Shown one piece after another: positions 9,144 to 43,034 of a stretch of 64,000 nt of DNA. A program made the translations under genes and the position numbers. The notes beneath the pieces are model-generated. The model did not search any database. It was not told where the DNA came from and saw only the letters and a program-made list of their open reading frames with translations. Position 1 is the stretch's first letter. Every line of letters begins with the position of its first letter. This DNA is from Rhodothermales bacterium (GTDB lineage: Bacteria > Bacteroidota > Rhodothermia > Rhodothermales > Bin80): contig OX638318.1 in assembly GCA_951812585.1 (NCBI GenBank), forward strand, positions 462,819-526,818, in the 5' to 3' direction.

Positions 9144-10649
9144 TCATTTCGCGATGTCCCGGCCCATCGCCTGATGATCCTGCTGTGAGCGGAGATGCCG
9201 CAGGCTTCTGCGATCGTCCATCAGGTGTGTGATGGTGTGCTGGCCAGTCCCTGGCTGATCCCACGAGCCCAACTCCGCGCGCGCATGCGCGGCTTCTGCC
9301 ATCAGCCGCGTTACGATGTCTGGATGTGCGGCAGCAACATCCTGCGTTTCGCCGGGGTCTTTGCTCAAATCGTACAGCAATGGTTCTTCCAGATCCCGAA
9401 GGCCCGACTCCCACCAGACCAGCATTTCCGGCGTGCGCGGCAGGTGCAGCTTCCACTGACCCTCGCGCACCGCTTGCAGGTTGAGGCCGTTGTAGTAATA
9501 GAATACGCGATCATGCATGCCTTCAAGCCGGTCTCCAAAGAGTACCGGGCGCAGGTCGGTGCCATCAATGAGGCGATCAGAGGGCAGCGTAGCACCTGCC
9601 AGGTTGGCAATCGTCGGCAAAAGATCCATGGCGTTCACCATCGCGCCGCTCACTGCACCTGCGGCGATGCGGGCAGGCCATCGCATGATGCAAGGTACCC
9701 GCAAGCCGCCTTCAAACGTGCTACCTTTGCCACCTCTGAAGGGCCCGTTGGAGCCGTAGGTACTTGCCGGCGCGGACCCATTGTCAGAAGTGAATATCAC
9801 CAGCGTATCGGCAGCCAGGCCCGCGTCCTCTAGTGCGCCAAGGACCATGCCTGTGCTCCAGTCGATCTCCTCGACCATGTCGCCGTACACGCCTGCGAGC
9901 GACTGACCCGCAAATCTTGGATTGGGCATCCAAGGTGCGTGGGCACGCGTGTGTGACAGGTAAATGAAAAAGGGGCGCTGCGGATCGGCGTGGATAAACT
10001 CGACGGCGCGTTGCGTAAAGTGCTCTGTGATGGTCGTCACATGCGCATCCGGGTCTACGATGCTATCGTCTTCCAAGAGCGGCGTGGAACCGTCCGGATG
10101 CGTGTTGACGACCATGCCATGGAACAGATCAAAACCGTGCCGCGCCGGGTGAAACTGCGAGTGCGCGGTGAAACCCGCATGCGTGTCGAAGTCAAAGCCT
10201 GGCGGAATGCCCAGGTGCCACTTCCCGATACAGGCCGTCCGGTAGCCGCGACCTTTTGCCAATTCGGCAATGGTCACTTCGCTCTCTTCAAGCCCCAGAT
10301 CGCTGTAGACCCCGCCTACCGCGAAGGGCACGCCGCACCGCGACGGATAACGCCCCGTCAGCAGCGCGGCGCGGGAAGGACTGCACACTGAACAAGGAGA
10401 GCGATAATCGGTGAAACGGATGCCTGCCGCCGCCATACGATCCAGGTGCGGCGTCCTTATTGTGTTCGACCCGTAACAGCCCAGGTCGCCGTAGCCCAGA
10501 TCGTCGGCAAAGATGAGGACAACGTTAGGGGCCGCCGCGCGTGCAGCCCGGCTCCAGCATCCAGTGCTAGCGGCGACCGCGGCGCATGTGGCCGCTTTGA
10601 TAAAGTCCCGGCGCGTCAGGGCGGCGCTATTAGCTGTTGGCAGCCTCAT
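9144..10649 (-). CDS. Tat-exported type I sulfatase
   Basis: Arylsulfatase-type enzymes hydrolyse sulfate esters using a formylglycine made from cysteine or serine. Here the activation site is C-S-P-S-R followed by A-A-L-L-T-G-R (residues ~85-97), so it is the Cys type. The metal-binding start of the domain is F-A-D-D-L-G-Y-G-D-L-G, and F-T-S-D-N-G is also present. The N-terminus carries a twin-arginine motif (T-R-R-D-F-I-K) and a possible lipobox (S-T-G-C), giving export of a folded protein. The length of 501 residues is normal. Its start overlaps the stop of the ankyrin gene by 4 bp, so the two are translationally coupled. The substrate is unknown, probably a sulfated algal glycan. Confidence 0.9.
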   Translation of the reverse strand: MRLPTANSAALTRRDFIKAATCAAVAASTGCWSRAARAAAPNVVLIFADDLGYGDLGCYGSNTIRTPHLDRMAAAGIRFTDYRSPCSVCSPSRAALLTGRYPSRCGVPFAVGGVYSDLGLEESEVTIAELAKGRGYRTACIGKWHLGIPPGFDFDTHAGFTAHSQFHPARHGFDLFHGMVVNTHPDGSTPLLEDDSIVDPDAHVTTITEHFTQRAVEFIHADPQRPFFIYLSHTRAHAPWMPNPRFAGQSLAGVYGDMVEEIDWSTGMVLGALEDAGLAADTLVIFTSDNGSAPASTYGSNGPFRGGKGSTFEGGLRVPCIMRWPARIAAGAVSGAMVNAMDLLPTIANLAGATLPSDRLIDGTDLRPVLFGDRLEGMHDRVFYYYNGLNLQAVREGQWKLHLPRTPEMLVWWESGLRDLEEPLLYDLSKDPGETQDVAAAHPDIVTRLMAEAAHARAELGSWDQPGTGQHTITHLMDDRRSLRHLRSQQDHQAMGRDIAK

Positions 10650-11262: not shown

Positions 11263-12864
11263 CTACTCGAACACCTGTTCCGGGTGGTCTTGGTACCACT
11301 GAAGTTCAAGCTGCTCCCGTGCATCCAGCGTGTCTTCGCGGCTGAGCAGCTGGTGACGATACCGCCGAAAAGCCTGCATATCTGTTTGCAGGGCGCGGGT
11401 AGTCTCCTCCCAGTGCGGGCTGCCAAGCCACTCCTTGGGATCCGTGTAGCTGGAATGCGCCGATCCTGTGGGGCGTACGCCGCTCCCGCGTCGGCCATAG
11501 TCGCCCAGCTCCGCGCGCGCCTCGTCGGCCAATGCCAAAAGGCGCGCCACGACATCGGGGTGCTGAGCCGCCACATCTCTTGTCTCGCCTGCATCTACCT
11601 GCAGATCATAAAGTGCTGGCGCGTCCATCAGCGTCGTATTAACCGCAAGCCAGGGGGCACACTCGCCGTAGATGCCCGCGCGCGACTCCGGGCGCGCAAG
11701 GTGCAGCTTCCACCGCCCGGCCCGTACGGCCTGCAGCCATGTACCAGCGTAGTAGTAGTAGACCGCGTGCGGGCTCTTTGCACCCGCGCGCGCCTGCATC
11801 AGCGGCCACAGGTTCCTGCCATCAATGGTGCGATCCCCCGGCAACGGTGCGCCTGACAGGTGCGCAAGCGTCGGCATAATGTCCATGATGGTGGCCAACT
11901 CGCTGCATGTGGTGCCTGCCGGAATCTCCTGGGGCCACCTCATGATGCATGGCACGCGCACACCGCCCTCCCATGTGGTTAGTTTGCCGCCGCGGAGCGG
12001 CGCCGCGGAGCCGGACTGATCCCCGAATCCCAGCCATGGCCCATTGTCGGAGGTATAAATGACCAGCGTGCGATCGTCCAGTCCCAGTGTCTTCAGGTGG
12101 TCCAGGATCAGTCCCGTGCACCAGTCAATCTCTTCTATGGCATCCCCGTAAAGTCCCGCATCGGAAGTGCCCTGAAACTCCTTGCCAGGATAGATCGGGA
12201 TATGCGGCATGGGATGCGCCAGATACAGGAAAAACGGCTGGTGCTGACTCCGCTCGATAAACGCGATGGATTCGCGGGTGTAATCCTGCGTGAATCGAAA
12301 GTGGTTTGGACGCTCGGTAAGCTTTCGGTCGTTGTAGTAGAGCGGCACGGCAAAGTTTTCGAATGGCTGCGTGCCGTTTACGATGCGGATGCCATAGAAG
12401 AAGTCGAAGCCTTGGCGATTCGGAGCAAAGATGTCGTCTTGGCCCAGGTGCCACTTGCCTATACAGGCGGTTGCATAGCCGCGGGTCTTGAGCATATCCG
12501 CTATGGTCACCTCGTCGGGACTCAGCCCAAAGGGAGCATCGTACAGGTGCACATCAGGCATGCCGGCCCGCACTGCATAGCTTCCTGTCAGCAGCGCAGC
12601 ACGCGAGGGAGAGCAGATCGGGCTTACGTAAAAGTCGGTAAAGCGCATGCCTTCGGCCGCCATGCGATCAATGCGCGGGGTCCGAATGTTCGGCGACCCA
12701 TAGACGCCCAAGTCGTTGTAGCCCTGGTCATCTGTAAAGACGATCACAAAGTTGGGTGGCTGCGCTGGGGCTGCCCGGCAGGAGGCAAGCCCACTGGCCA
12801 AGCCGAGCGCCGCCCCTTTTCCCAGCGTATGCAGGAAGTCGCGGCGGCTCCACAGTCTAGACAT
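11263..12864 (-). CDS. Tat-exported type I sulfatase
   Basis: A second Cys-type sulfatase of ~533 residues with C-S-P-S-R-A-A-L-L-T-G as activation motif and F-T-D-D-Q-G-Y-N-D-L-G as metal-binding entry. The start at 12864 gives an N-terminus with S-R-R-D-F-L (twin arginine), a hydrophobic G-A-A-L-G-L-A-S-G-L-A stretch and a cysteine (L-A-S-C) that may be lipidated. It differs clearly in sequence from the neighbouring sulfatase, so the pair probably removes sulfates from different positions. First enzyme gene after the receptor, surface protein and PorV triad of locus A. Confidence 0.9.
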   Translation of the reverse strand: MSRLWSRRDFLHTLGKGAALGLASGLASCRAAPAQPPNFVIVFTDDQGYNDLGVYGSPNIRTPRIDRMAAEGMRFTDFYVSPICSPSRAALLTGSYAVRAGMPDVHLYDAPFGLSPDEVTIADMLKTRGYATACIGKWHLGQDDIFAPNRQGFDFFYGIRIVNGTQPFENFAVPLYYNDRKLTERPNHFRFTQDYTRESIAFIERSQHQPFFLYLAHPMPHIPIYPGKEFQGTSDAGLYGDAIEEIDWCTGLILDHLKTLGLDDRTLVIYTSDNGPWLGFGDQSGSAAPLRGGKLTTWEGGVRVPCIMRWPQEIPAGTTCSELATIMDIMPTLAHLSGAPLPGDRTIDGRNLWPLMQARAGAKSPHAVYYYYAGTWLQAVRAGRWKLHLARPESRAGIYGECAPWLAVNTTLMDAPALYDLQVDAGETRDVAAQHPDVVARLLALADEARAELGDYGRRGSGVRPTGSAHSSYTDPKEWLGSPHWEETTRALQTDMQAFRRYRHQLLSREDTLDAREQLELQWYQDHPEQVFE

Positions 12865-12950
12865 AGCGTCAGCGGGGGATCCTGGATGCGGCCGGGGCGA
12901 CCAGACGAGTGGCACTGGCCATCTCGCTTGAGCGCACGCCACCGTGCCGC

Positions 12951-14000
12951 CTACAGCCCGAAGGCCATGGAGACGATATGCACCGACCCTAGCCGGCCAA
13001 ACTCCCAGAACGCGTAGCCCACATTGAGCGTGTAGCCACTCAAGCCGACGTTGATGCCGGTCCCCAGCGTGAGTCCCTCCTCGTCGTAGTTGAAGCGGTA
13101 ACCGCCGCGCACCGAAAACAGGTTGCGGAAGGTGTACTCCGTGCCCATGTTGACCTTCTCGGCTCCATCGTTGGGATGCACAAACTCAGCGGCCACCGTC
13201 CAGTGATGCAGGCTGCCCGCGCCGCTCTCCATAAGGTCATAGGCCGCGCCGAAGCTGAAATTGACCGGCATCCGCACATCTGCCGGTTCGTAGCCTATGC
13301 GCTCGTCGAAGGAGGCAATCTGCGTATCGGGACCGATGTTGCGGCCCACCATGGTGACGCGCAGGCTTCGAATGCCCGTATGAAACACCGTGCCAATGTC
13401 CACCGCCCAGGCACCGACCGTAGCGTCGTCCAGTGTTTCTGTGATGTACTTGGCGTTGACGCCGAAGTGCAGCTGCTCTGTCACCCTGCGGGCATAGCTG
13501 ACACCCAGGGCCAGGTCCTGCGCGGTGACCGTGCCGAGGTCTGTCAGCACTTCGGAGCGTCCGGTGGGGACGCCATCCACGAGGATCGCCCTGTTTTCTG
13601 TACGGGGCATGTCGCCATAGTCCAGGAACAGCAGGTTGACGCCAATGACACCGATGCCCTCAAAGTACCGGGCGGCAGCCATACTGTAGTAGTTGATGTC
13701 TGCAAACCAGCGGACGTTTGTCAGACCGATGTTGAGGCTGGTCATATCCACCAGCGAGGCAGGATTGGTAAGCGACGATGCTGCATCGCCGCGGCCCAGT
13801 GACGAGTTGACCCCACCCATGCCCGCCTGGCGCGCATTGGTGGGAAGCTTGAGAAACTGAAATCCTGCCTGTCCTACGCGGCTGAAGTCTGTGGGCGGCA
13901 GTCCGATGCCTGGGTCCGGGTCGAGCTGTGCATGCGCCGGCTGCGCAAGGCCTGCGATCATGAGCGCCAAGCAGGCCGAAAAGAAAGTCAGTCGTTTCAT
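12951..14000 (-). CDS. PorV/PorQ-family outer-membrane barrel, locus A
   Basis: A 349-residue outer-membrane protein with signal peptide (A-L-M-I-A-G-L-A-Q-P-A-H-A-Q) and the family signature F-L-K-L-P-T-N-A-R-Q-A-G-M-G-G followed by A-S-S-L-T-N-P-A-S-L. Alternating beta strands continue to a C-terminal strand ending V-S-M-A-F-G-L. PorV proteins accept type IX cargo at the outer membrane and help deliver it to the surface. This copy lies directly downstream of a large surface protein and a TonB receptor, an arrangement repeated in locus B, so it probably serves that protein rather than secretion in general. Confidence 0.85.
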   Translation of the reverse strand: MKRLTFFSACLALMIAGLAQPAHAQLDPDPGIGLPPTDFSRVGQAGFQFLKLPTNARQAGMGGVNSSLGRGDAASSLTNPASLVDMTSLNIGLTNVRWFADINYYSMAAARYFEGIGVIGVNLLFLDYGDMPRTENRAILVDGVPTGRSEVLTDLGTVTAQDLALGVSYARRVTEQLHFGVNAKYITETLDDATVGAWAVDIGTVFHTGIRSLRVTMVGRNIGPDTQIASFDERIGYEPADVRMPVNFSFGAAYDLMESGAGSLHHWTVAAEFVHPNDGAEKVNMGTEYTFRNLFSVRGGYRFNYDEEGLTLGTGINVGLSGYTLNVGYAFWEFGRLGSVHIVSMAFGL

Positions 14001-14040
14001 GGGATACCTCGGTAAGGATTAGCGTGCAGGTTCATGCGCA

Positions 14041-16017
14041 TCATTTGATGATGAGGAACTTGCCTGTGCTGGACTCTCCTTCGTGCCCTTGCACGTGCGA
14101 TTCGATATGGTAGATGTAGACGCCTGGCTGCACGTTCTGGAAGAAGCGCGTCAGGAGGTAGTCTCCGTGGAGTGCCGAGCCCCAGGCCTCTTCTCCAAAG
14201 CCATCGTCATGCTCGATGGTGCGCACCAGCTCCCCGGCAACCGTGTAGATGCGGATGGTGCATTCGCCTGGGATGTTCAGGAAGCTGATCCGCTTTTCTT
14301 CAGACGGATCGGACAGGCCACTGACCTGACGGAACGGATTCGGAACGACCAGCACCTTGGACTGATCGTTGCTGGGCGCAGGCTTGGCCGCCAGTGCGTA
14401 GTAGGTGTAGGCAGTGAACCCGCTTTCATTGCCGTCCGAGTCGTACGAGGTGACCCAGTGGCGGTACGGAATCCCGGGCTCTGCGGGCAGGCGATAGGTC
14501 ACCTTCCCTCCAGAGGTAAGTGCCGCCGCTTCAGCGTTGGACACATCTGCTGCTTCGACCCAGGGCCCCTCAATCCTTGACTCGGACTGGTACACCTTAT
14601 ATCCAGCGAAGTCGTTGGTACCCTTGATGGGATCCGTGTAACTGGAGGGTACCGCAGTCCAGGTGAGCTCGAAGCCTTGCGTGCCGAGTTCAGTATCGAC
14701 ATAGATGCCTACGTCAAGCTCGTCGTCGTTGCTGGCAAACGGGGCATCGCCTACGGTTGGCGGTGGAAAAGCCGAGATGCCCTCATTCCAGCTGCCCGTG
14801 CGCCTGAATCCGTCCACGATATCCAGCGCTGCCTGCCAGTTGGCCTTCAGGTTGGCTAATCCCTGCTGCAGGTAGCTTTGGGTGGCGTTCGTGCCGCCTA
14901 GTTCGCTGACATTGCGGTCCATTTCGCCGAGCGCAACCACGCGAATGAGCTCGACCGAATCTCCCGGCGCAATGTCGTAGGGCCCAATGCCCAGGCTGAA
15001 CGAAGGCACGCGCTCGTACAGGTTGCCATCAATCGTGCTGCCATTTGCATTGGCATCCTGCCAGCTCATGCGCGTCTGCTGCTTCGTCATGCGCGTGAAG
15101 ACATAGGTCGGATCCAGGTTGGTTGGCTGCCAAAACTCTTCGTCGGGGGCCCCGGGATTTTCGTTCAGGATGCGATGGAAGATGCCCTGATAGACCGTCG
15201 TCTCGCCATGCTTGTTGGGCGTGACATACACAATGTTGTCCGTAAAGAGCTGCGGCGAGTACAGGCGGCGATCAATCGAGTTCTGGATCGTGATATTGCC
15301 GGGATCTCCGCGGTCACCCGTCACATCGCCGGGGGAAATATCGTAGGTGACAGGGGCTTGATTGGGTGGCATGGACGTGTCGTCGTAGAACACGAAATTG
15401 CCCGACTCCGTGCGAAAGTTGCTGAAGCTTGGATCCCACAGGTATTCGTCGTCGAAGGAGACGCCGTAGGGTATGCCCAGGCTTATGTTGATGCCATAGG
15501 CCACATTGTAGTACCAGTTGGTAATCTGCTCCGTGCTCTCGTTCGTGAATACCTCCCGATGTATGACGAAGTCGTCATACTTCGGCAGGCTCCATACCAT
15601 GCGCTTGCGCGAAACTGTCAGCGGTATGACAGGAACCTCGGACCCGGACGGGTCCACAGAGGTGACCGTTTCATAAGAGTACTCCTCAGCCTCAGTCAAG
15701 CTTTTCGTAAAGTTGTAGTTCTTGACCTGGGTGTGATGCACGACATTGAAGCCCGGCCATCCGCCCGTGATGTGCTGCACGCCGTCTACATCGCCCGCCC
15801 AGTAGCTCAGGGTGTTGAACCAGTTGGATGGTGCTTCAAAGTACCCGGGATAGGAGGCCAGCCAGATCGGCGGGTTGGGCACAGCTTCACTGATGACCGT
15901 CCAGAACTTGCCGCGCGTGAAGGAGTGATCCGTACTGCTCTGGCCAAAGGCCGCTACGCAGGGCAGCCCGACCAATAAGGCAACGAGCAGTGCGCTATGT
16001 CTTGTGTAGGTGCTCAT
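14041..16017 (-). CDS. Large surface protein with Fn3-like region and type IX-like C-terminal domain ('YDDF' family), locus A
   Basis: A 658-residue protein with a signal peptide (L-L-V-G-L-P-C-V-A-A-F-G-Q). Residues ~130-190 contain a conserved block, K-R-M-V-W-S-L-P-K-Y-D-D-F-V-I, recurring in the locus B paralogue as S-Y-P-D-Y-D-D-F-I-I. Residues ~450-560 resemble a fibronectin type III domain (Y-K-V-Y-Q-S...G-P-W...). The C-terminus (V-V-P-N-P-F-R, then I-R-I-Y-T-V-A-G-E-L-V, then G-V-Y-I-Y-H-I) has the form of a type IX/FlgD-like sorting domain. I do not recognise a named function. Its place between TonB receptor and PorV suggests a surface glycan-binding role like SusD, without SusD homology. 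Confidence 0.75.
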   Translation of the reverse strand: MSTYTRHSALLVALLVGLPCVAAFGQSSTDHSFTRGKFWTVISEAVPNPPIWLASYPGYFEAPSNWFNTLSYWAGDVDGVQHITGGWPGFNVVHHTQVKNYNFTKSLTEAEEYSYETVTSVDPSGSEVPVIPLTVSRKRMVWSLPKYDDFVIHREVFTNESTEQITNWYYNVAYGINISLGIPYGVSFDDEYLWDPSFSNFRTESGNFVFYDDTSMPPNQAPVTYDISPGDVTGDRGDPGNITIQNSIDRRLYSPQLFTDNIVYVTPNKHGETTVYQGIFHRILNENPGAPDEEFWQPTNLDPTYVFTRMTKQQTRMSWQDANANGSTIDGNLYERVPSFSLGIGPYDIAPGDSVELIRVVALGEMDRNVSELGGTNATQSYLQQGLANLKANWQAALDIVDGFRRTGSWNEGISAFPPPTVGDAPFASNDDELDVGIYVDTELGTQGFELTWTAVPSSYTDPIKGTNDFAGYKVYQSESRIEGPWVEAADVSNAEAAALTSGGKVTYRLPAEPGIPYRHWVTSYDSDGNESGFTAYTYYALAAKPAPSNDQSKVLVVPNPFRQVSGLSDPSEEKRISFLNIPGECTIRIYTVAGELVRTIEHDDGFGEEAWGSALHGDYLLTRFFQNVQPGVYIYHIESHVQGHEGESSTGKFLIIK

Positions 16018-16063
16018 CTATTCAGACTCCGGTTAAAGGGTGATGAAATGATTCCAGGCACAC

Positions 16064-19000
16064 CTAAAACGTCACCTGGAGTCCGAAATAGACCTGCCTT
16101 GGCAAGAGTCCCTGATTGTACCAGTCCCATTCGCTTTCCTCGCCGGTGGTCGGATTGACCGGCAGCTTGCCTTCTTCGTGATAGGTCTCCAGCGCGTTGC
16201 CGGTCAAGAAGTTGAGCCGCTTCGAATTAAGCACGTTGTGCACATCGATGCTGAACTCCATATGCGCACCGCCGGGTACTGCAACAGCCTTGGAGAGGCG
16301 CAAGTTGGTATTATGGTGCGGCTTCCAGCGCCGGTTGTTGGGCTCTGTGGAAAAGTCTCCCGGCGAGTGGTACGTATAGCGGTGGCCGCTCGCATAGACG
16401 TAGTAGGCATTGAGATGCCAGTCGCCAAACGGATGGAAGGATCCGAGCGCCGGCCCCAAATCCGTCGGCGAGAAGAGGTTCGCGATCACCTTGACGCTGG
16501 TAGTCGGATTCCAGGTGTCGTTGTTGGTGCCCGACAGGCCTTTGTCGCTGAGGCTTACGCCATGCAGCGTATGGGGCCGTACGGGATTACCTTCCTCGTC
16601 TGTGATGAAGATCTGCCTGAAGCCGTATTGTCCCGAGCGCACGAATGACCGATTGAAGATGATCCGCGCGCGGGCATGCTGCAGGAACAGGGAGTGCAGG
16701 GACAACTCCAGACCGCGCACATCCACATAGCCCCCATTGGAGGTGACGCGACTGCGGCCACCACCCGGCGCAAACCCGAAGGGGTTCGCCGCATCCCAAT
16801 GCACCTCCGTGGTGACCGACCCGCCGACGCCGAAGAGGTTGTCACCGATGTTGTTGGGAGACTGCCGCACCCCCAGCGAAGTCAGGTTCTTTCCGTCCCT
16901 GTAATAGACCGTTGCGTCCAGGTTTGCAATACCCGGAATGTGCTGATCGAAGCCGAGTTCGTACTGGATAATCTTTTCGAAGGCGAGGTCCGGATTGCCC
17001 GTGTTGGTGTTCGGGTGGTAGAACACGAAAGTATATTGCGCCGTGTCCGGCGAGGCATGCGGGGCCCCGGCGGACGAGCCGAAGACATGGAACACGGTAG
17101 GCCCGCCCCCGATAAGCTGCCAGGCCGGGCGCTGGTTGAAGTGGCCGTAGGCGAAATGCAGCACTGTGTTTTCTGTGATCGGGTGGGAAATGCCGAAACG
17201 CGGGGACACGACGGCCTTGGAGGCCGTAGACACGCCGTGCTCATCGTCGGTATAGGTCACAATATCCGCGGGCGGCGCGTTGAGCATGTTGGTGATCATG
17301 GCGGGATCAAAGATGGACGGTGCCACTTTCGTGTTGGCATTGAAGACATCGAGGCGCAATCCGGCGTTGATCACCATACCGTTGGCCTCGATCTTGCCCT
17401 GTGCATACGCCGCGGCGTCCCACGGATAGAAGTCGGGCCTGGTCGCATGGTTGGAGTATATGGCACCCGGCATGGCGCCTGACTTGAACCGCTTGGACAC
17501 ATACTGCGGCGAATACATCGCCCCGGTCTTGAGTTGGAAGAAGCGGTTGATCTGGTTCGTATAGTCGGCCTTGAATACCCCGGCGTCTGATTCAACCATG
17601 AGCTGGAAGATGCCCGGATGTCCGCGGTGAAATATGGGCGGCAGCAGAAACAGCGGATTGCCGGGAATCATGGTCTCGTCCCACGCCGTTCCGAAGCTCT
17701 CGGAATCTGGATCATAGACATCGCTGGCTTCCAACTGCTTGAAGTTGTTGCGATCCAGATCCATGGACGTATAGCTTATCTGGACATCCAGGTAGGAGGC
17801 CGGATTGAATACATGGGACCATTTGAGTTGCCCGCTCTTGAGCCGCATGTACTCCGGCGGCGAAGGCAGCTGGAAGATGTGGGAGGTACCGTAAGGCCAG
17901 TATTTGAAGGTGGCATAGCCGGAATAGTAGAACGGTGCCGGACCCCAGAGACCGGCTATGAACGAGTCCTCGCTGGACCAGTAGCTTAGCCGGGGTCCCT
18001 CAGTGTTATTGAATCCCTGAAGCAGGCCTGAGAATTCCAGCCGGTTGCTTCGGGAGAGCCGATAGTCCAGCTTTCCCTGGTAGTTCCAGTCTCTGGAAAA
18101 CGGCAGGTAGGCCGGAAATTCAGGGGCATCCTTTAGAAACTTGCCCGACAGCAGAAAGCTGAGCCCGCGGGTTATCGGTCCGTAGATGGTGGCTTCCGTT
18201 TCCCAGGTTGGGCGCTCCGCATAGCGCTGCATGTTTTTTGATGGGTCCCCAAAGAGGTCTCCAGAGATAAAGGCCGTCCAGGCGTTCAGACGCTCCTGCG
18301 GCGTCTTGTTGACCCAGTCGCCCCCGCCGGTATTCTCCGTCCAGTAGTCCAGGGTCGCCATCGTAGCCCATTCGTAGTTCTCCTTGCTGTAGATATTGCG
18401 GCCCCAGTGGTACTTCCCCGGGGGTCGCAGGCGGGCGCGTACTGTGCCATGCAGGCGATCAGTCGCCGACTTGGTAACGATGTTGATGACTGCACCCATG
18501 GCGCGGCCGTATTCCGCATTCCAGCCTCCGGTCAGGACTTCCAGCTCGGATATCGCTGTGGTGTTGACACCCGTCAGATTGACGCCGGACACGTTGTCAC
18601 GCAGGCTGAGCCCATCCATATAGTAGCTGTCCTCCAGGCCAAAGCCTCCGCGAATGCCGCCGTTGATGTTGGTGGCTGCCTGGATTTCGATGGCCTCTAG
18701 GACGGTTTTGGCCCAGCTGTTGGCAAGCTCTTCGCCGCTCATGCGCTCTTTGCTGCCGGTCAGGTCCACCTCTACGGGCGGCCGATCGGCTGTCACGATG
18801 AGCTCGTCGGTTTCGACGGTCGCTTCGGTCATTTCAAAGTGGACCGGTGTGGTCTGACCGATGAAGACCCGAGCATCCGTCTTCGTCACGGTGACAAAAC
18901 CGATGATCGACGCTTGGACGGCGTGCAGCCCGGGGGGCACCCGCAGTATGAAGTAGTTGCCTTCCACATCGGTAGATGCCCCGAGGGTCGTGCCGACCAC

Positions 19001-19144
19001 GACGACATTGACACCCGGCAAGGGGTCGCCGGTGTTGGCATCGGTGATGGTACCCGCGATCTTGCCTGCCTGGGACTGGGCCAGGGCTACGCCCTGACAG
19101 GCCACAAGTGCGGCGATAAGGAGGGGAGGCAGTCTCGTAAGCAT
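16064..19144 (-). CDS. TonB-dependent outer-membrane receptor, locus A
   Basis: The ~1026-residue product starts (ATG at 19144) with a signal peptide ending V-A-L-A-Q and a carboxypeptidase-regulatory-like domain (G-K-I-A-G-T-I-T-D-A-N-T-G-D-P-L-P-G-V-N-V, ~25-110). The plug follows (A-E-Y-G-R-A-M-G-A-V-I-N-I-V-T-K, ~210-225) and then a long beta-barrel ending in V-Y-F-G-L-Q-V-T-F. It imports large substrates energised by TonB. There is no SusD gene next to it; a YDDF surface protein and a PorV-like barrel follow at 46 and 40 bp spacing. A LacI-type palindrome and a TTG/TAnnTTTG promoter are visible upstream. Alternative in-frame starts extend to 19291 but lack a signal peptide. Confidence 0.92.
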   Translation of the reverse strand: MLTRLPPLLIAALVACQGVALAQSQAGKIAGTITDANTGDPLPGVNVVVVGTTLGASTDVEGNYFILRVPPGLHAVQASIIGFVTVTKTDARVFIGQTTPVHFEMTEATVETDELIVTADRPPVEVDLTGSKERMSGEELANSWAKTVLEAIEIQAATNINGGIRGGFGLEDSYYMDGLSLRDNVSGVNLTGVNTTAISELEVLTGGWNAEYGRAMGAVINIVTKSATDRLHGTVRARLRPPGKYHWGRNIYSKENYEWATMATLDYWTENTGGGDWVNKTPQERLNAWTAFISGDLFGDPSKNMQRYAERPTWETEATIYGPITRGLSFLLSGKFLKDAPEFPAYLPFSRDWNYQGKLDYRLSRSNRLEFSGLLQGFNNTEGPRLSYWSSEDSFIAGLWGPAPFYYSGYATFKYWPYGTSHIFQLPSPPEYMRLKSGQLKWSHVFNPASYLDVQISYTSMDLDRNNFKQLEASDVYDPDSESFGTAWDETMIPGNPLFLLPPIFHRGHPGIFQLMVESDAGVFKADYTNQINRFFQLKTGAMYSPQYVSKRFKSGAMPGAIYSNHATRPDFYPWDAAAYAQGKIEANGMVINAGLRLDVFNANTKVAPSIFDPAMITNMLNAPPADIVTYTDDEHGVSTASKAVVSPRFGISHPITENTVLHFAYGHFNQRPAWQLIGGGPTVFHVFGSSAGAPHASPDTAQYTFVFYHPNTNTGNPDLAFEKIIQYELGFDQHIPGIANLDATVYYRDGKNLTSLGVRQSPNNIGDNLFGVGGSVTTEVHWDAANPFGFAPGGGRSRVTSNGGYVDVRGLELSLHSLFLQHARARIIFNRSFVRSGQYGFRQIFITDEEGNPVRPHTLHGVSLSDKGLSGTNNDTWNPTTSVKVIANLFSPTDLGPALGSFHPFGDWHLNAYYVYASGHRYTYHSPGDFSTEPNNRRWKPHHNTNLRLSKAVAVPGGAHMEFSIDVHNVLNSKRLNFLTGNALETYHEEGKLPVNPTTGEESEWDWYNQGLLPRQVYFGLQVTF

Positions 19145-19379: not shown

Positions 19380-19942
19380 CACGATGCACACGTAGCGCTG
19401 TAGAAGGGTGTACCCCCCAGGGGCGGACCGCTGCTTCGCCTGTTGCGGTCGTAAGCCAGCAGGCGTGTCCCGCACGCTGGCGCCCGGACTCCTTCGCGCC
19501 GCGCCGGGGCGCATCGACTGGCGGGGCCGTTCATTCCGCCAATGAGGTGCGCAGATCCGCGAGGGGATCCACGCGCCGCCATTTTCGAGGACCGGCCGTA
19601 GCCGCAAGGACGACGGCTCCTTCGCAGGCACACAGACGCGGCGACTCATGCCCCATGTGCTTCGCATTCTTGGCTGCCGCGGGGCTCGGAGAGTCCCGCG
19701 ACAGCCGTGCAGGAATATGGACGCACCGCTGCTGCTTTGGCGCGCCTAGCCGCAGGGACCGGGTCCATGCAGGCCCCTGGACACGCGGAACGGTGCAGTT
19801 ACTCGGTCGACACAGATGCGCTGAGGTCCACGGCAGCGCACAGGGCGAATGAGTCCGCAGCGCCGCGGGGTTCAACTTGCCGGGTGGCACGGTGCGGCAA
19901 CAACAGGTATATTGTGGCGCACCTTGTCCATTGCGTTCTCCT
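19380..19942. other. GC-rich divergent intergenic region
   Basis: Between the divergent receptor (minus) and PL17 (plus) genes I see no convincing gene; the open frames here look like GC-rich shadows. A TATATTG sequence near 19911 could be part of the PL17 promoter, but no well-spaced partner box is found. Confidence 0.4.
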
Positions 19943-22126: not shown

Positions 22127-22150
22127 GCCCAGCCTACGACCCCAATTGCT

Positions 22151-22909: not shown

Positions 22910-22923
22910 TGGGCGGCAAGACA

Positions 22924-22954
22924 GCCATCCAAGGCCCGCATTGGGATGGCCTTT
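22924..22954 (+). terminator. Stem-loop with T-run between SDR and dctP
   Basis: GCCATCC (22924-22930) pairs with GGATGGC (22944-22950), followed by CTTTT. It could attenuate transcription so that lyase/SDR and transporter genes are expressed at different levels. Confidence 0.45.
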
Positions 22955-22985
22955 TGCTGGGATGGCCTTTGCTTAATTCTGCCTA

Positions 22986-23975: not shown

Positions 23976-23981
23976 GCAGGC

Positions 23982-24467: not shown

Positions 24468-24485
24468 TTCGGAGGATCCAACCGT

Positions 24486-35510: not shown

Positions 35511-36905
35511 CTAGAAGGAATAGGTAGCGCCGAACAGCACGTTGTGCTTGCGGATTCGGTTGAAGTCTACGTTGGACTCCCAGCGGTCCTGGTAAAGCAG
35601 CCGCTGAAACTCATAGCTCATGTCGAGCACCAGCACGCCCAGACGGCGGCCTATACCCGCACTCAGGGCATCGCCGGTGGCCGTCTCGCCGAGAAGACCG
35701 GAGCCCTCGATGCGAAAGCCCCGCGGGTCCCGTCGGAACCCTGCGCGTATCCAGGTGTCGTCGCGCAATGACCCTTCGATGCCCAGGCCTATGCCGTGGG
35801 CCAAGCCCCAGTCTGGCGCCGCGCCGCTTGACTTCAGCAGCGCATAGTCCTGCCTGAAGTAGTCTACAGCGATCATGACGCGCGGCATGGGACGAACCGC
35901 GGCCCCCAAGACGATGCGGGCCGGCAGTGTGACTTCATCGTCACCTGTCATCGGCACATTCGTATCCCCGGATACCGACGCCTGAGCTGACCGGGCGTAG
36001 CTGAAGCTGTGCGCAACCGTGTGCGGGAACGTAAAAACGATGCCCGTACGCAGCACATGATACTGCCAGTGGAGTCCGACCGTCGCACTCATGCCACTGA
36101 ATTCGGATGTGCCCTCCCACGCCGTGTATCCGTCCGCCGTATCGAAGCTGTAGTCGTGTGCGTCTTCCCGCAAGAGAAACAAGCCGCGATCGCGAAGCTG
36201 TTGCCGATCGGTCGTGGTGCCCCAGGACCGGGCCACGCGCAGCCCAACGTAAAGATTCTGGGCCACCTCCATGCCCGCGGCCATGGAGATGGCCCGTAGG
36301 TGCCCGACGCGCTCGCGCTCAAAGGCCGACCAGCGCACTTCAATCTCCTCGCCGGGATTAGGTCGCTCTATAGGCGCGGGTCGGAACTGCCCGATGTATG
36401 GGTCTAAAACATTGTCATTGCGGTCATAATCCCCCAGATGCGCTGCCTGGTGGAGCATTAGGCCGACCGCTACGCGGCGGCCCGCCAGCCTAAACGGCAT
36501 CGCGCCCCCCAAAGCACCCAGTTGCACCGTGCGCTGGCGATGCGTCCAGTCCGGATTGGCGAAGGGATCCGTCGTGTAGGCATCGGGATCCGCAAAGTAC
36601 AGTGACAGCCCAGCATAGTACCGGTTTGGATTCCAGTGCTGCGTCTCCGCCCAGTCTCCAGAGCGCCAAAACCCGCTGGCTGCTACCGCCGGTCGCTGCA
36701 TGATGGCCAAGCCCGCGGGGTTAAGCACCACCGACTCCACTTCGCCCGGCAGCGCGGCGAATACGCCCCCCATGCCCCGGGCGCGAACAGACATCAGTGC
36801 ATGCTGCTCAATCCCTTGGATACCAAGCCGCTGCATGACGCCTTGGCCCTCAGCTGCCGGCGCTGCCAAAAGCAGCACAATACCGCAAAGCCCACCGCGC
36901 CACAT
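35511..36905 (-). CDS. Outer-membrane beta-barrel (FadL/UPF0164-like)
   Basis: A 464-residue protein with signal peptide (L-L-A-A-P-A-A-E-G-Q) and the N-terminal R-A-R-G-M-G-G...V-V-L-N-P-A-G-L-A signature shared by PorV, UPF0164 and FadL-type barrels. Many amphipathic strands follow and the chain ends N-V-L-F-G-A-T-Y-S-F with a terminal aromatic. Its start overlaps the stop of the preceding PorV-like gene by one base. It may be a second cargo-shuttle barrel or a diffusion channel for products; the sequence does not decide. Confidence 0.75.
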   Translation of the reverse strand: MWRGGLCGIVLLLAAPAAEGQGVMQRLGIQGIEQHALMSVRARGMGGVFAALPGEVESVVLNPAGLAIMQRPAVAASGFWRSGDWAETQHWNPNRYYAGLSLYFADPDAYTTDPFANPDWTHRQRTVQLGALGGAMPFRLAGRRVAVGLMLHQAAHLGDYDRNDNVLDPYIGQFRPAPIERPNPGEEIEVRWSAFERERVGHLRAISMAAGMEVAQNLYVGLRVARSWGTTTDRQQLRDRGLFLLREDAHDYSFDTADGYTAWEGTSEFSGMSATVGLHWQYHVLRTGIVFTFPHTVAHSFSYARSAQASVSGDTNVPMTGDDEVTLPARIVLGAAVRPMPRVMIAVDYFRQDYALLKSSGAAPDWGLAHGIGLGIEGSLRDDTWIRAGFRRDPRGFRIEGSGLLGETATGDALSAGIGRRLGVLVLDMSYEFQRLLYQDRWESNVDFNRIRKHNVLFGATYSF

Positions 36906-37915
36906 CAGTCCGTCGTAAAGGAGACGCCCAGGCGATGCACCGCGCCAAACGCCTCCGTCATGTTACTGTAGCTGTAATCGAAGCCCAGCGTAATCGCACC
37001 GAGCGGCTGCACCACGCCCGCACCGTAGCTGAAGGACGCGATGTCGTAGTTGTGCTGGTACCCGCTGCGAAACATCAGACGCCCAAAGATGGCATACTCC
37101 AGACCCGCGGCCCACTGCTGATCGTAGTCGTTGGGCTGAATAAGGTCAAAGGTGGCCGTCAGGCGGTTGTTATCATGCAGCGAAATAAGCCCCGCGCTCC
37201 CTAAGACATCCACGGCACCGCCGATCCGAAAAAGGAGCGGCACCGGATAGGCTTCCTCCCCGAATGACACGGGCGCACCGAAGTTCATGACCGAGGCACC
37301 CAGGCGCAGAGACCGAAATCCTGTCACGTAGGTCATGCCAAAGTCAAACAAGAACGCATTGTCTGCCGCAAGCCAAAGGTCCTCGCGGGCCAGTTTCGCC
37401 GTGAGGCCCGCTGCAAAGCGATCAGTGAAATTGCGAGCGTACGTAACGCCGAGCACCCAGCTGCTTATCGAGAACGTGTTGCCGGTCAGTCCGGGGTTGT
37501 AGACAACCGCGCCGTCCTGATCCTGAAAGCCCAGGTTCTCCACGCGCGTCTCCTGAAACTGGCCCATATCCGCCATATGGAAGTGCGCACCCAGGTATCC
37601 GAACGACCCCAGAGCCACGCCATAGGCTACGCCGTAGTGCGCTGTATCCAGGAACCAGTCGACGCGGTCCATAGCGAGGCTGTGGCCCGCGGTGCGCGCC
37701 AATCCGGCTGGATTCCAGTACAAAGCATGGGCACCCTCGGCTCGTGCGCTAAAGGCCGTGCCCACGCCCATCGACCGGGCATCCGGGGCAACGTTCAGGA
37801 ACTGCATGGAGGAGGTCCCCACCTTTTGGGCTTGTCCGATGTGGGGCACCAGCGTGCACACCAAGGCGCATGCCAGGCCTAACCGCGCTCCAGCCAACTG
37901 TCGTGATTCAATCAT
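36905..37915 (-). CDS. PorV/PorQ-family outer-membrane barrel, locus B
   Basis: The ATG at 37915 gives ~336 residues with a signal peptide (L-V-P-H-I-G-Q-A-Q). The family core is F-L-N-V-A-P-D-A-R-S-M-G-V-G...A-L-Y-W-N-P-A-G-L-A. Barrel strands follow, ending L-G-V-S-F-T-T-D. Start and upstream stop overlap by four bases, coupling it to the YDDF surface protein. Counterpart of the barrel at 12951-14000 in locus A. Expected role: receipt and surface delivery of the coupled sorted protein. Confidence 0.85.
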   Translation of the reverse strand: MIESRQLAGARLGLACALVCTLVPHIGQAQKVGTSSMQFLNVAPDARSMGVGTAFSARAEGAHALYWNPAGLARTAGHSLAMDRVDWFLDTAHYGVAYGVALGSFGYLGAHFHMADMGQFQETRVENLGFQDQDGAVVYNPGLTGNTFSISSWVLGVTYARNFTDRFAAGLTAKLAREDLWLAADNAFLFDFGMTYVTGFRSLRLGASVMNFGAPVSFGEEAYPVPLLFRIGGAVDVLGSAGLISLHDNNRLTATFDLIQPNDYDQQWAAGLEYAIFGRLMFRSGYQHNYDIASFSYGAGVVQPLGAITLGFDYSYSNMTEAFGAVHRLGVSFTTD

Positions 37916-40194
37916 TTGATCACCACAAATTTGCCGCGGTAGGCCCCGCCATCTGGCGTACTTACCACGAAGAAGTAGACGCCTGACGCTATTTCCTGGT
38001 CGTTGCGCGTCACTTGGAACCATGGTGTCGAATAGCGCGCGGCATCGTGCTCAATCGTCTCCACGAGCTGACCGCTATACGAATAGATGTCTATCGTTGC
38101 CCGCTCAGGAAGCCCATAGAAGCCGATCTGCTGTGCCACGTTCGCCGCGCCTCCACTGGTGAATCCGCTGTTCAGATAGAACGGATTTGGCACGGCATGC
38201 ACTTCGGTCAACTCGTCTGCTGGGCCGAGCGCCGCCAGGACGTTCGTCAGGTTGGTCTTGCCGCTCTCGCGGCCCTCTGAATCGAGGGCCGTTACCGCAT
38301 ACCACTTGGACTCACCCACGGTCGTGGCGTCGTCAATGAATTCATATTGATCCGAGTCGGTCAGGTAGCTGGTACTCCCGACCGGCACTTCTGCCAGTGT
38401 TTGCCATGGACCGATGGCTGCCTGCGCGCTAAGCACACGGTAAGAAGTCACGGCCCCCGTGAGCCGCGGATGCGAGAAGCTTTCCTGGACTCGCCCCCAG
38501 CGAATGACCGCATGGGCCCGGTCATTGTTGGTGATATTGAGTACGGGCGCGGGCGGCGGCACGGGCACCTGGTAGATCCCGTGCGCTGGATTATCCTCGG
38601 GCCAGTACGGAAGCACAGGGGGTTGGCCGGTGTAGGCATTGTAGGCCATATCCGCCACATCTTTGACGGTCTGAATGTCTGAGTTTACGTACTCGGGGTA
38701 TCCGTACGTACCAATGTAATTGTCTGTAAGCGTCTGCCCGGTGTTGGGATCGATGACACGGTCGTAGAAATGAGGCACTTCGTGCCAGGGCATCTGCTCG
38801 TCAATGACTTCGCCCAGTCCTCCACCCTCGTCCCATTCTCCGGGTCCTTTGGCTGCGCCGTAGCCCACGACCTCTGCGAGCGAGAATTCAAGCTTCGCCC
38901 CATGGGGCAGTATGTATGGACCGAAAACGATATGATGCCCAACCGCTTTGTAGGACTGCCTGAAGTTGAAGGCACCGCGCCCAGTCCACCGAAGCGAATC
39001 GGAATCTTCCGTACCTGGAGGCGGCGGAAACTGCGTTTCGCGATACGGCGTGTACGTGCCGCTCCACCGCGTGTAGGGCACGAGCTTGGGCTTCATCTTA
39101 TCCTCGCGCGAATTGCCGCTTTCGACCTTGTTCATGAAGGGCTGCTTCAGCGTACTATCGGCGTCTATCATGCGCTCATTGGACACACGCGGATCCAGGG
39201 CATATGTATGCCCTCTGGTAGCCAGATGGTTGCGGTCGTAATACAGCATCTGGATGCCCGGGACCTGCGGCGACATCAATCCGCCTCCCTGCTGCCCCGT
39301 CGATGCATAGGTGTCAAAATACTTGGGATCCGGCTTGCCGGATTCGGCAAAGTCTGCATCTACGCCGTTGCCGATGTTGACCACATAGCGCAACCAGCGG
39401 TGGCGGTCGAAATAGCCGCGCAAATCGTTCTTGTACATGAAGTCATACTCCCAAGTACCGTACCAACGCTGGAAGCCCAGCATTGAGGGAGCCACGCCGT
39501 AGTGGAAGCCGATGAGCACCTCGTACAGGGTCGAATCGTTGTTCATGATCCCGTCTCCATCGGTATCACCCGTGTTTTCGAAGGTGTACTCGTAGATGAT
39601 GAAGTCGTCGTAGTCGGGATAGCTCCAAGCGCGGCTGGTTCGCTTCACTGAAATGCCCGTGTTGGATCCCCATTCCGCCACGATGACCTCTTCCGCTTCG
39701 TCGGGATCGTAAGCGGGGTTGAGGCTACCGTCGTCCAGGAGCGGATAATTCTCGAAGCGCTCTATGGAAATCGGAAAGGAGTACACGCCCGCCACGGTGG
39801 TCGGGATGTGCTGGCCGGCCGAGCCTCCAAACGAGTAAAGCCGTTGGTCCAGATCGAAAATGTTGGTTCCTCTGTACGAGGCTGCGATTGAGATTCCTCC
39901 GCCAATGATGTTGTGCTGTCCGCTGTACTGCAGGCCATCAATGAGCGTTGCGGAATTGCCTGGCCATTCCATGAGCGGGTCCAGGGTGATATCATGGTCG
40001 CGGTAGCGCCATGCCCGGCCGATTTCCCCGGTGTTGTAGACGGTTTCGTGCAGTGTGCCGCGCCTGTGCACACGCTTGTCGCGAAGAACCTGCGCGCTGG
40101 CAGTCTGCAAGAGGGTGGCGACCATTACGGCCAGCGCGACCGTGCCTATTGAGCCTATTGAGGCTATTGATATGTTCACAGGCCTACGCATCAT
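37912..40194 (-). CDS. Large surface protein with Fn3-like region and type IX-like C-terminal domain ('YDDF' family), locus B
   Basis: A 760-residue exported protein (signal M-V-A-T-L-L-Q-T-A-S-A-Q), paralogue of the product at 14041-16017. Shared traits are a central S-Y-P-D-Y-D-D-F-I-I-Y-E-Y-T-F-E-N block (~195-212), the preceding S-V-K-R segment, an Fn3-like region near 560-660, and the terminal V-P-N-P-F-Y...I-D-I-Y-S-Y-S-G-Q-L-V-E-T-I...G-V-Y-F-F-V-V domain. D-x-D-x-D-G (D-T-D-G-D-G) at ~215 may bind calcium. The start overlaps the receptor stop by four bases. Function unknown; context suggests a surface partner of the receptor. Confidence 0.75.
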   Translation of the reverse strand: MMRRPVNISIASIGSIGTVALAVMVATLLQTASAQVLRDKRVHRRGTLHETVYNTGEIGRAWRYRDHDITLDPLMEWPGNSATLIDGLQYSGQHNIIGGGISIAASYRGTNIFDLDQRLYSFGGSAGQHIPTTVAGVYSFPISIERFENYPLLDDGSLNPAYDPDEAEEVIVAEWGSNTGISVKRTSRAWSYPDYDDFIIYEYTFENTGDTDGDGIMNNDSTLYEVLIGFHYGVAPSMLGFQRWYGTWEYDFMYKNDLRGYFDRHRWLRYVVNIGNGVDADFAESGKPDPKYFDTYASTGQQGGGLMSPQVPGIQMLYYDRNHLATRGHTYALDPRVSNERMIDADSTLKQPFMNKVESGNSREDKMKPKLVPYTRWSGTYTPYRETQFPPPPGTEDSDSLRWTGRGAFNFRQSYKAVGHHIVFGPYILPHGAKLEFSLAEVVGYGAAKGPGEWDEGGGLGEVIDEQMPWHEVPHFYDRVIDPNTGQTLTDNYIGTYGYPEYVNSDIQTVKDVADMAYNAYTGQPPVLPYWPEDNPAHGIYQVPVPPPAPVLNITNNDRAHAVIRWGRVQESFSHPRLTGAVTSYRVLSAQAAIGPWQTLAEVPVGSTSYLTDSDQYEFIDDATTVGESKWYAVTALDSEGRESGKTNLTNVLAALGPADELTEVHAVPNPFYLNSGFTSGGAANVAQQIGFYGLPERATIDIYSYSGQLVETIEHDAARYSTPWFQVTRNDQEIASGVYFFVVSTPDGGAYRGKFVVIK

Positions 40195-43034
40195 AGGTGC
40201 ACCACCACACCGAATCGGATGGATCGCGGGGCATTGTCGTAAATGCGGAACGTCTGCAGGGCGGCCAGGTCAGGATTGTTGCTGTCTGGCAACGCATACT
40301 CTATATCGTCGCCTTCCTCGTACCGGCGCAACGTTTCAGCGTCAAGAAAGACCCGGTTGTAGTCGAAGGTGTGGACGTTGAAGAGGTTGAAGATCTCCAC
40401 AAACACGTCAGACCGCCCGGCGGGCGTCTCCAGACGTTTCGTGACCTTCAGGTTGGTGTTGTGCTCCCAAGGTGTCCGCAGCGTATTGAGCTTAGCGAAA
40501 TTGTCGCCCAGCAGCTCGCTGGGCGTGTACGGGCGGCCACTCCGGCTGTCCTGGAGTATGTTGACACGCAGGCCGCCGAGCGGGTGGGCGCCGATGATTC
40601 GCGGTCCCCACGCACGCGGAAGGTTGAGTCCTGCCACCCAGACGAGCGCGTGTCGGCGGTCAAAGTCCAGCAGAATATCACGCGGACTGGGTGGCTGCGT
40701 TTGCTCATTGGTCTCATCTACGATGGGACTGCGACCGGTCGGCGTGGAGTTCTTCCCCGTAGCGACTGAAAAGTGATAGCGAATGGAACCCGAGACCACC
40801 CCTTGGCGCTTGTTCAGGCGAAGGCTGAACCCCCTGACATTGGCATAATCCCGATTGCCTACCGACTCGTACAGGTTGTCGTTGGCGTCGATATAGACTA
40901 CGCGTTGGATCAGGTTCTTGACATCTTTGAAGTAGCCGCTGACATCGAATGTGAACCCGCGGGCGACGCCCAGCACCAAGCCCACATCATAACTCTTGGT
41001 TTCCTCCGGTTTGAGAAGCGGATTCCCCAGGCGCCTGGGCTCAGCGGTGCCGAGATTCTCGTTGAACAGCGTGGTGCGCCGCCCGATGAGGCGCTCCAGC
41101 CCCGGACGCTTCAAGAAATTACCGTAGTTCAGGTGGAAGACCGCCCGCTCGCTGATGGGGAAGGAGAACCCCAGGCGAGGCTGCAAACGCACGACTTTAG
41201 GTGCCTTTGACTGCTCCGCCAATGCCTCGTCGATCACCGCTGGGTTGTCTGGATCCCTGAACGGCGAAAAGGTATCGGTGTAGTAATGCACATTCTGGTC
41301 ATAGAAATCCAGCCGCAGCCCGACATTGGTGATCATGCCCTCAAACTCCATCTTGTCCTGCACATAGAGGGCGGCTTCGTACGGTTTGGCACGATAATAC
41401 TCCTGTACGGCACTCGACCGTGACGAGTGATTGAGTCGGTTCTCTACGTTGATGTCATACCAGTTTCCCTGGAAGCCTACTTTGAACTCATGATTGTTGG
41501 ATACCTGGCTGTTAATGAAGCCGACTGCAGACCAGGTCCACGACCGCTCGTTGAAGAAATCGTCGTCCATCACGCCCGTCCTGAATCCGTCCTCCCAATA
41601 CAGCCGTTCCCATACGGATCGGTCGTAGATGTCATCTCTGAACCGGTCCGGATCGATCACATCCACTCCTTCATCCAGGCGTGTCCGCATCCCGTTCAGT
41701 GTCACCTCATAGAACGTGCGATCATTGAGTACATGGGAATACACCAGGCCCAGCCCGGTGCTTCGGTCCCACACTTTGTTGGCACCGATTACGCGATCAT
41801 AAATCCAGCGATAAAAGCCGCCGGACGAGTAGCTGAATTCCTGCGAATAGACTGTTCCGTGAAGGCCGCTGAGCTTTAACTTCATGCCGCGGGCGGGCCT
41901 GATGACGAGATTGCCCATCACTTGGGCCTGCCGGTCGGGGGCGGGCGTCGGCAACATAGGCCAGACCCGGTTAATCTGCGTGGCTACGAACAAGTTGGTG
42001 TGGTCCGAAAGCGGGCCCCCGATGGTAAGGTCCAGTAGTGCATCCCACCGATTGTTGTATTCATGTCCGATATCCCGGTGTGTCCGGCGCCACAGGTCAT
42101 AGGCCAGCTGTGCCCCTTCATCTGGATCCACGCGGGAGCCGAACCCACGACCGATAGCGCCCTGCCACCGCGGCCGGTCGTCGTTCTCTGGATCAGGGGC
42201 TTGCCACCATTCCAGATTATCCATCAACCGGATATACGGATTGGTGTCAGGATCGAAGACGCTGCCACCAAAATGCTTGTAGCTTGGCATTCGCGTACGC
42301 ATTTCCGCGCGGCTTTGCCAAACGCTGCCGCCTTCCTTTGTTGAGATGTTGATTACTCCGCTCATGGCATTGCCGTACTCAGCGGAGAATCCGCTGGTGA
42401 TCACCTCGACCTCCTCCACTGCGCTCAGCATCGGTGTAAATGAGCGTGAGGAATTGAGCGGATTGACAATGCCCATACCTGCCAGGATATAGAGCTCCTC
42501 GTTCGAACGGCCGCCCCGAAAATGCCCATCATTCACTTCAGCCTGGAGCGCCAGCACATCGGACAGGTTGGTTACCCCGGCGATCTGCTCCACTTCTTCG
42601 GGTCGGATGATTTCCACCGTTGCCGTCTGGTCCGGCTCAACGTCCGGCCTGACCGCGACCACGATTACATCGTCTCCCTCCGTGACCGTTTCTTCAAGCG
42701 TGAAATCGACTCTCGTCGTCCGATTGATGTTTACGATAACATCAGACTGCGTGAGGGCGCGATACCCAATAAAGGAGGCGGTCAGATTGTAGGTCCCGGG
42801 GGTAACGTTGAGGATAAAGTAGCGGCCTTCCAGATCGGTGGATGTCCCGCGCAACGTGCCCATGACCACCACATTGACGCCGACCATGGGCTCGCCGGCA
42901 TTGTCGGTCACTAGCCCGGTGATCTTGCCAGACTGACCTGCGGCAGGGATGACCACCTGGGGCAGCATCGAGGCGAGAACCAGCATGAGCAACGAGCCTA
43001 AATACTGCAATCTCGACTGCAATCTCGTGCTCAT
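40191..43034 (-). CDS. TonB-dependent outer-membrane receptor, locus B
   Basis: A 947-residue receptor with signal peptide (V-V-I-P-A-A-G-Q), carboxypeptidase-like domain (G-K-I-T-G-L-V-T-D-N-A-G-E-P-M-V-G-V-N-V, ~36-115), plug (A-E-Y-G-N-A-M-S-G-V-I-N-I-S-T-K, ~220-235) and a barrel ending I-R-F-G-V-V-V-H-L. It should import oligosaccharides released by the PL6 and heparinase-type lyases in the same operon. No SusD partner. A LacI-type palindrome lies 73 bp upstream. Genes down to 35507 overlap or nearly touch, implying one transcript. Confidence 0.92.
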   Translation of the reverse strand: MSTRLQSRLQYLGSLLMLVLASMLPQVVIPAAGQSGKITGLVTDNAGEPMVGVNVVVMGTLRGTSTDLEGRYFILNVTPGTYNLTASFIGYRALTQSDVIVNINRTTRVDFTLEETVTEGDDVIVVAVRPDVEPDQTATVEIIRPEEVEQIAGVTNLSDVLALQAEVNDGHFRGGRSNEELYILAGMGIVNPLNSSRSFTPMLSAVEEVEVITSGFSAEYGNAMSGVINISTKEGGSVWQSRAEMRTRMPSYKHFGGSVFDPDTNPYIRLMDNLEWWQAPDPENDDRPRWQGAIGRGFGSRVDPDEGAQLAYDLWRRTHRDIGHEYNNRWDALLDLTIGGPLSDHTNLFVATQINRVWPMLPTPAPDRQAQVMGNLVIRPARGMKLKLSGLHGTVYSQEFSYSSGGFYRWIYDRVIGANKVWDRSTGLGLVYSHVLNDRTFYEVTLNGMRTRLDEGVDVIDPDRFRDDIYDRSVWERLYWEDGFRTGVMDDDFFNERSWTWSAVGFINSQVSNNHEFKVGFQGNWYDINVENRLNHSSRSSAVQEYYRAKPYEAALYVQDKMEFEGMITNVGLRLDFYDQNVHYYTDTFSPFRDPDNPAVIDEALAEQSKAPKVVRLQPRLGFSFPISERAVFHLNYGNFLKRPGLERLIGRRTTLFNENLGTAEPRRLGNPLLKPEETKSYDVGLVLGVARGFTFDVSGYFKDVKNLIQRVVYIDANDNLYESVGNRDYANVRGFSLRLNKRQGVVSGSIRYHFSVATGKNSTPTGRSPIVDETNEQTQPPSPRDILLDFDRRHALVWVAGLNLPRAWGPRIIGAHPLGGLRVNILQDSRSGRPYTPSELLGDNFAKLNTLRTPWEHNTNLKVTKRLETPAGRSDVFVEIFNLFNVHTFDYNRVFLDAETLRRYEEGDDIEYALPDSNNPDLAALQTFRIYDNAPRSIRFGVVVHL

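Follow-up and report, generated by a model that had tools for sequence, protein, structure and literature searches.

Gene order, protein families, predicted fold, distribution and co-inheritance define a conserved three-gene outer-membrane module in a Rhodothermales bacterium, in which a TonB-dependent receptor is encoded together with a protein bearing a C-terminal domain (CTD) of the type IX secretion system (T9SS) and with a β-barrel of the PorV/PorQ family. The window analysed is a stretch of 64,000 nucleotides (contig OX638318.1, positions 462,819 to 526,818), and in it three adjacent minus-strand genes at positions 12951-19144, here called triad A, encode the receptor, the CTD-bearing middle protein and the barrel. 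The receptor gene runs from an ATG at 19144 to a stop at 16064, and the genes, all on one strand, are separated by 46 bp (receptor and middle gene) and 40 bp (middle gene and barrel). The original prediction had described three consecutive genes without a SusD homologue; the open reading frames are indeed there, and locus A contains no SusD. By analogy with characterised systems, we lean towards the view that the middle protein would be exported through SprA, kept on a dedicated barrel and used beside the receptor as its surface binding partner.

The genome, a single contig of 3.2 Mb, contains the order receptor, CTD protein, barrel at six loci, two of which (A and B) lie inside the window. 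Homologous loci were gathered by searching both the class and the whole collection with the middle protein as query, which selected the middle gene only. The order seen at locus A holds across genomes of the Fibrobacterota-Chlorobiota-Bacteroidota (FCB) group: 62 of the 79 homologous loci have a receptor upstream and a barrel downstream on the same strand, with six more ending at a contig edge on the receptor side, and the genes lie a median of 22 and 11.5 bp apart. These loci come from Rhodothermota, Ignavibacteriota, KSB1, Calditrichota, Neomarinimicrobiota, Zixibacteria, WOR-3, Latescibacterota, Poribacteria and others. Since the order recurs at six loci of one genome and at 62 of 79 loci elsewhere, a chance neighbourhood is excluded.

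Over 64 triads, the distances among receptors, among CTDs and among barrels correlate with r = 0.89-0.94. The same comparison for the six paralogues of this genome gives r = 0.57-0.69 (p = 0.016-0.027), and because all six reside in one genome, this correlation is not due to species history. These distances show that the three components have been inherited together, though not that they touch. Recent local duplication of one triad is ruled out as the source of the six copies, whose barrels are scattered over the FCB-wide tree on long branches. Tandem triads, in which receptor, CTD protein and barrel are followed by another receptor, occur at four loci of Neomarinimicrobiota and related FCB contigs.

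Is the triad a SusC-SusD pair that has lost its lid? The receptor had been taken for a SusC-type protein missing its SusD, and this claim fails. Membership of the SusC/RagA family is defined by a full-length TIGR04056 match above 368 bits together with the TIGR04057 signature of SusC. Receptor A scores 62 bits against TIGR04056, with its N-terminal part only; the six triad receptors of the genome score 46-97 bits, mainly through the N-terminal domain and plug, and TIGR04057 has no match in any of the six. Three other receptors in the same genome reach 628, 636 and 513 bits. The genome encodes three SusD-superfamily proteins, each adjoining its own true SusC. The family scores and the separate true pairs thus rule out a SusC with a lost SusD. 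In this one genome, three SusC-SusD pairs exist alongside six receptor-CTD-barrel triads as distinct systems; as judged by family membership, the triad represents a receptor system of its own type. Because the triad receptor lies outside the SusC/RagA family, a SusD lid is not to be expected.

Four genomes of a sister genus carry a complete SusC-SusD pair on the strand of the triad A orthologue, some 0.9-1.1 kb upstream of it; at that place the present genome has no such pair. Therefore, both systems can share one locus, and the triad is not simply a stand-in for SusD. Of the proposal that the middle protein is an unrelated replacement for SusD, the unrelated fold has stood, but the simple replacement has not. 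The triad does resemble SusC-SusD in that a TonB receptor and a single presumed surface partner are encoded together, in this case leading a run of glycan-degradation genes. It differs in the family of its receptor and in the partner, a mostly β CTD protein without a lipobox, whereas SusD is a helical lipoprotein. Another TonB-receptor-like gene, followed by a DUF4249 lipoprotein, was observed at L054 16302-19001; the lipoprotein is possibly a further type of partner.

In sequence scans, the CTD of middle protein A stays under the curated cut-offs, its best match being the PorU C-terminus (E = 0.0095). TIGR04183 (cut-off 23) has no match in protein A and gives 21-25 bits for protein B; the tails of PorU and PorZ match weakly. 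The assignment of protein A is backed by an alignment with 58 relatives and by the PorU crystal structure, which is among its fold matches, as well as by the triad paralogues, which reach or come near the TIGR04183 cut-off. With a leave-one-out hidden Markov model (HMM), triad CTDs score 72-93 bits against each other, and the remaining 30 T9SS tails examined in this genome score 0-21.5. The SprA translocon is found in this genome and in 29 of the 33 genomes with triad-type loci, 27 of them over the cut-off.

Against NF033709, the model of the PorV/PorQ family (cut-off 90), barrel A scores 183 bits and the other five triad barrels of the genome 120-215 bits, which places them in that family. 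Barrel A is under both equivalog cut-offs, at 127.5 bits for PorQ (NF033711, cut-off 220) and 60.6 bits for PorV (NF033710, cut-off 250), and none of the six triad barrels reaches either. The genome has its housekeeping PorV (277.9 bits), which adjoins PorU (951 bits), and a separate true PorQ (246.5 bits); 63 of 64 triad barrels cluster apart from PorV and from PorQ. The top match of the triad barrels in the PDB is PorV of the SprA-PorV complex (E = 4e-30). A plain FadL-type transporter is unlikely, as TodX comes only second, over a short stretch and with E = 4e-4. Delivery to the surface by a PorV of its own had been predicted for the middle protein. The triad barrel does look dedicated to its neighbouring CTD protein, as far as sequence comparison goes, but barrel A falls short of the cut-off for a PorV.

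The 658-residue middle protein has no Pfam match with an E-value of 1 or less, SusD_RagB and SusD-like models included. Its structure was modelled with AlphaFold2 from 59 aligned sequences (predicted local distance difference test, pLDDT, 77; predicted template modelling score 0.80), which superseded an earlier model from 13 sequences with a pLDDT of 48. In the model, residues 22-426 comprise a super-β-sandwich followed by a long helix, and their fold resembles that of the N-terminal domains of dextran dextrinase and of enzymes of glycoside hydrolase (GH) families GH116, GH94 and GH15. The matches have Z up to 17.5 and cover 236-289 aligned residues, with a root-mean-square deviation of 3.3-4.3 for most of the top ones, at about 10% identity. 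Unlike in these enzymes, a catalytic barrel, whether (α/α)6 or TIM, is absent from the model, and the super-sandwich passes straight to the Fn3 domain and then to the CTD. A SusD fold is absent among the fold matches listed, which does not exclude one. A lipobox is absent from the middle protein of triad A, and a lipobox-like string occurs in one of 59 relatives. The long and short middle proteins of the triads form one superfamily (hhalign probability 100%, E = 1.5e-65).

The middle protein could be an enzyme or adhesin that is merely co-transcribed with the receptor for the same nutrient, given that its fold occurs in glycoside hydrolases and that the loci hold degradative enzymes. However, besides the missing catalytic barrel, most of the twelve residues invariant across the 59 relatives are Pro, Gly, Trp or Asn, an acidic pair is not among them, and the same superfamily is also present in loci without clear carbohydrate-active enzymes (CAZymes); we regard this alternative as quite improbable. 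A domain of the sugar-enzyme type minus its catalytic module suggests, from the model, ligand binding or presentation.

How would the three proteins work together? We propose that the middle protein is exported by Sec and then by SprA, and that its special CTD would be taken up by the neighbouring barrel instead of the housekeeping PorV. It would then stay on this barrel without a lipid anchor, much as PorQ retains PorZ and PorP/SprF retains type B proteins. Beside the receptor at the cell surface, it would bind or present a ligand (in loci A and B, glycan fragments) for the receptor to import using TonB energy. In this respect, the middle protein would play the part of a SusD-type partner, though with a different fold and a different anchor, and would not be a SusD. 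Its export, its retention and its contact with the receptor we infer by analogy. In characterised T9SS, PorZ, a CTD-bearing surface protein of the attachment complex, retains its CTD and remains on PorQ, a PorV/PorQ-family barrel (PMC10202324), and barrel A is nearer PorQ than PorV. Unlike in the PorZ-PorQ case, a true PorQ is encoded separately in the genome, the middle protein has another body, and the triad adds a TonB-dependent receptor and exists in many divergent copies. The second precedent is that of the type B proteins, which need and bind a PorP/SprF barrel encoded directly downstream; in the SprB-SprF and PG1035-PorP pairs, the barrels are needed for secretion and are proposed anchors (PMC9143113, PMC12618676). 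The triad has the same arrangement, the barrel gene coming immediately after that of the CTD protein which it would serve, but its barrel is of the PorV/PorQ family, and its CTD resembles type A, as in the tails of PorU and PorZ.

An alternative explanation holds that the barrel is a specialised shuttle from SprA to the surface, that PorU removes the CTD and that the super-sandwich/Fn3 protein is released or linked to lipopolysaccharide and never meets the receptor, the operon reflecting co-regulation for one substrate. PorU, which normally cleaves type A cargo (PMC10202324), is present in the genome (951 bits), and secretion itself requires the cognate PorP/SprF shuttles (PMC12618676). On the other hand, neither a PorV nor a triad-type receptor lies within about 1.5 kb of any of the 30 other T9SS-tailed proteins of the genome, the enzymes of the triad B operon among them. 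In addition, the 1:1:1 order that includes the receptor is conserved from phylum to phylum, and all three genes are co-inherited. We consider a shuttle of this kind rather unlikely.

The receptor might also work outwards and help to export its neighbour or to place it at the surface. There is a precedent in Oar, a TonB-dependent transporter needed for secretion of PopC in Myxococcus (PMC6434023), and the triad receptor is of the CarboxypepD_reg type, not of the SusC type. Nevertheless, this seems very improbable: SprA and T9SS-type CTDs in nearly all triad genomes indicate that a dedicated export route is already there, and the gene runs headed by triads A and B include sulfatases and lyases, pointing to uptake.

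Several points weigh against a retained middle protein that serves the receptor as a binding partner. PorU may cleave its CTD, and the protein would then be released or attached elsewhere. The residues conserved in the middle protein appear to be structural and give no hint of a binding site. The inverse relation between SusD and PorV-family counts (Spearman -0.43 over 133 genomes of the class, at least 95% complete) rests on first-look counts, which are lower bounds or loose, with no correction for phylogeny. Loci A and B together hold sulfatases and PL6/heparinase-type enzymes, whereas triads C and E adjoin FG-GAP/ASPIC proteins, an amidase and an oxidoreductase. Because the surroundings of C and E are no clear CAZyme loci, a glycan ligand is not general, and since the neighbours of A and B are unlike those of C and E, the ligand probably differs between triad copies. 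Triad C (L020 2536-7754) is followed by three successive FG-GAP/ASPIC_UnbV proteins.

We regard the triad as a known principle, the cognate pair of CTD protein and barrel, newly coupled to a TonB-dependent receptor. Literature searches returned no description of it among open-licence papers, which is no proof of absence. According to PMC12618676, all type A CTDs are recognised by a single PorV shuttle, a rule with which dedicated PorV-family barrels would contrast. It is tempting to extend the proposal to a hitherto unrecognised, FCB-wide class of TonB-dependent uptake machines, in which a private T9SS-type barrel, not a lipid, would keep the ligand-binding surface partner at the membrane and whose complex of receptor, partner and anchor would have evolved independently of SusCD; this extension we offer tentatively, as possible but not expected. 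If it were true, there would be a second design for surface-assisted nutrient uptake in the poorly studied Ignavibacteriota, KSB1, Neomarinimicrobiota, Calditrichota and Rhodothermota, and type IX machinery would build permanent receptor complexes besides exporting cargo. Type A-like CTDs could then own dedicated barrels, which bears on how a CTD signal decides between being retained and being cleaved, and a large set of "hypothetical" CTD proteins would gain testable partners.

Table 1. Positions in the window of the features of triads A and B and of the sulfatase genes near triad A.
Feature	Position	Strand	Basis or description
Triad A TonB-dependent receptor, 1026 aa	16064..19144	-	CarboxypepD_reg domain, plug, β-barrel
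Receptor A CarboxypepD_reg-like N-terminal domain, residues 29-117	18794..19060	-	PF13715 (CarbopepD_reg_2), E = 2.1e-16, 60 bits
Receptor A plug match, residues 164-219	18488..18655	-	PF07715, 18.1 bits, under the cut-off of 23.9
Triad A middle protein, 658 aa	14041..16017	-	Signal peptide, super-β-sandwich, Fn3, T9SS-type CTD
Super-β-sandwich, residues ~22-426	14740..15954	-	Like N-domains of GH116/GH94/GH15; VIA-align Z 15-17.5
"YDDF" motif, residues 147-150	15568..15579	-	Alignments; family consensus YDDFII-TN
Fn3-like domain, residues ~434-530	14428..14718	-	Strands of the model, fibronectin matches
T9SS-type CTD, residues 551-658	14044..14367	-	Distinct triad subfamily; leave-one-out HMM
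Triad A barrel, 349 aa	12951..14000	-	PorV/PorQ family, NF033709 183 bits
Sulfatase, next in the same strand run after barrel A	11263..12942	-	PF00884, E = 2e-62
Second sulfatase, same strand run	9144..10649	-	PF00884, E = 3.9e-60
Triad B receptor	40191..43034	-	E = 2e-64 to receptor A; TIGR04056 83 bits
Triad B middle protein, 760 aa	37912..40194	-	Family HMM E = 1.6e-59, 80% coverage; homologous over most of its length
Triad B barrel	36905..38023	-	PorV/PorQ family, NF033709 175 bits

Between the two sulfatase genes, an ankyrin-repeat protein is encoded at 10646-11233, and sister genomes have a gene of similar size at the same place. Divergent from triad A, positions 19877-25778 carry genes for a protein with heparinase II/III and alginate-lyase domains, a short-chain dehydrogenase and a tripartite ATP-independent periplasmic (TRAP) transporter, a cluster that looks like one for uronate or alginate catabolism. 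Scans for promoters and terminators yielded no excess of sites over shuffled sequence.

Triad B (36905-43034) stands at the head of a gene run with two chondroitinase-B-like proteins of polysaccharide lyase family 6 (PL6) type, a heparinase II/III-like protein and a DUF5123 β-helix protein, three of these products having T9SS tails. A 464-residue protein without a Pfam match is encoded directly after barrel B and before the lyase-type genes (35511-36905). Elsewhere (G000:C1:122844-138458), three T9SS-tailed proteins of 1838-1843 residues follow each other in close succession with identical tail scores, suggesting that they arose by recent tandem duplication.

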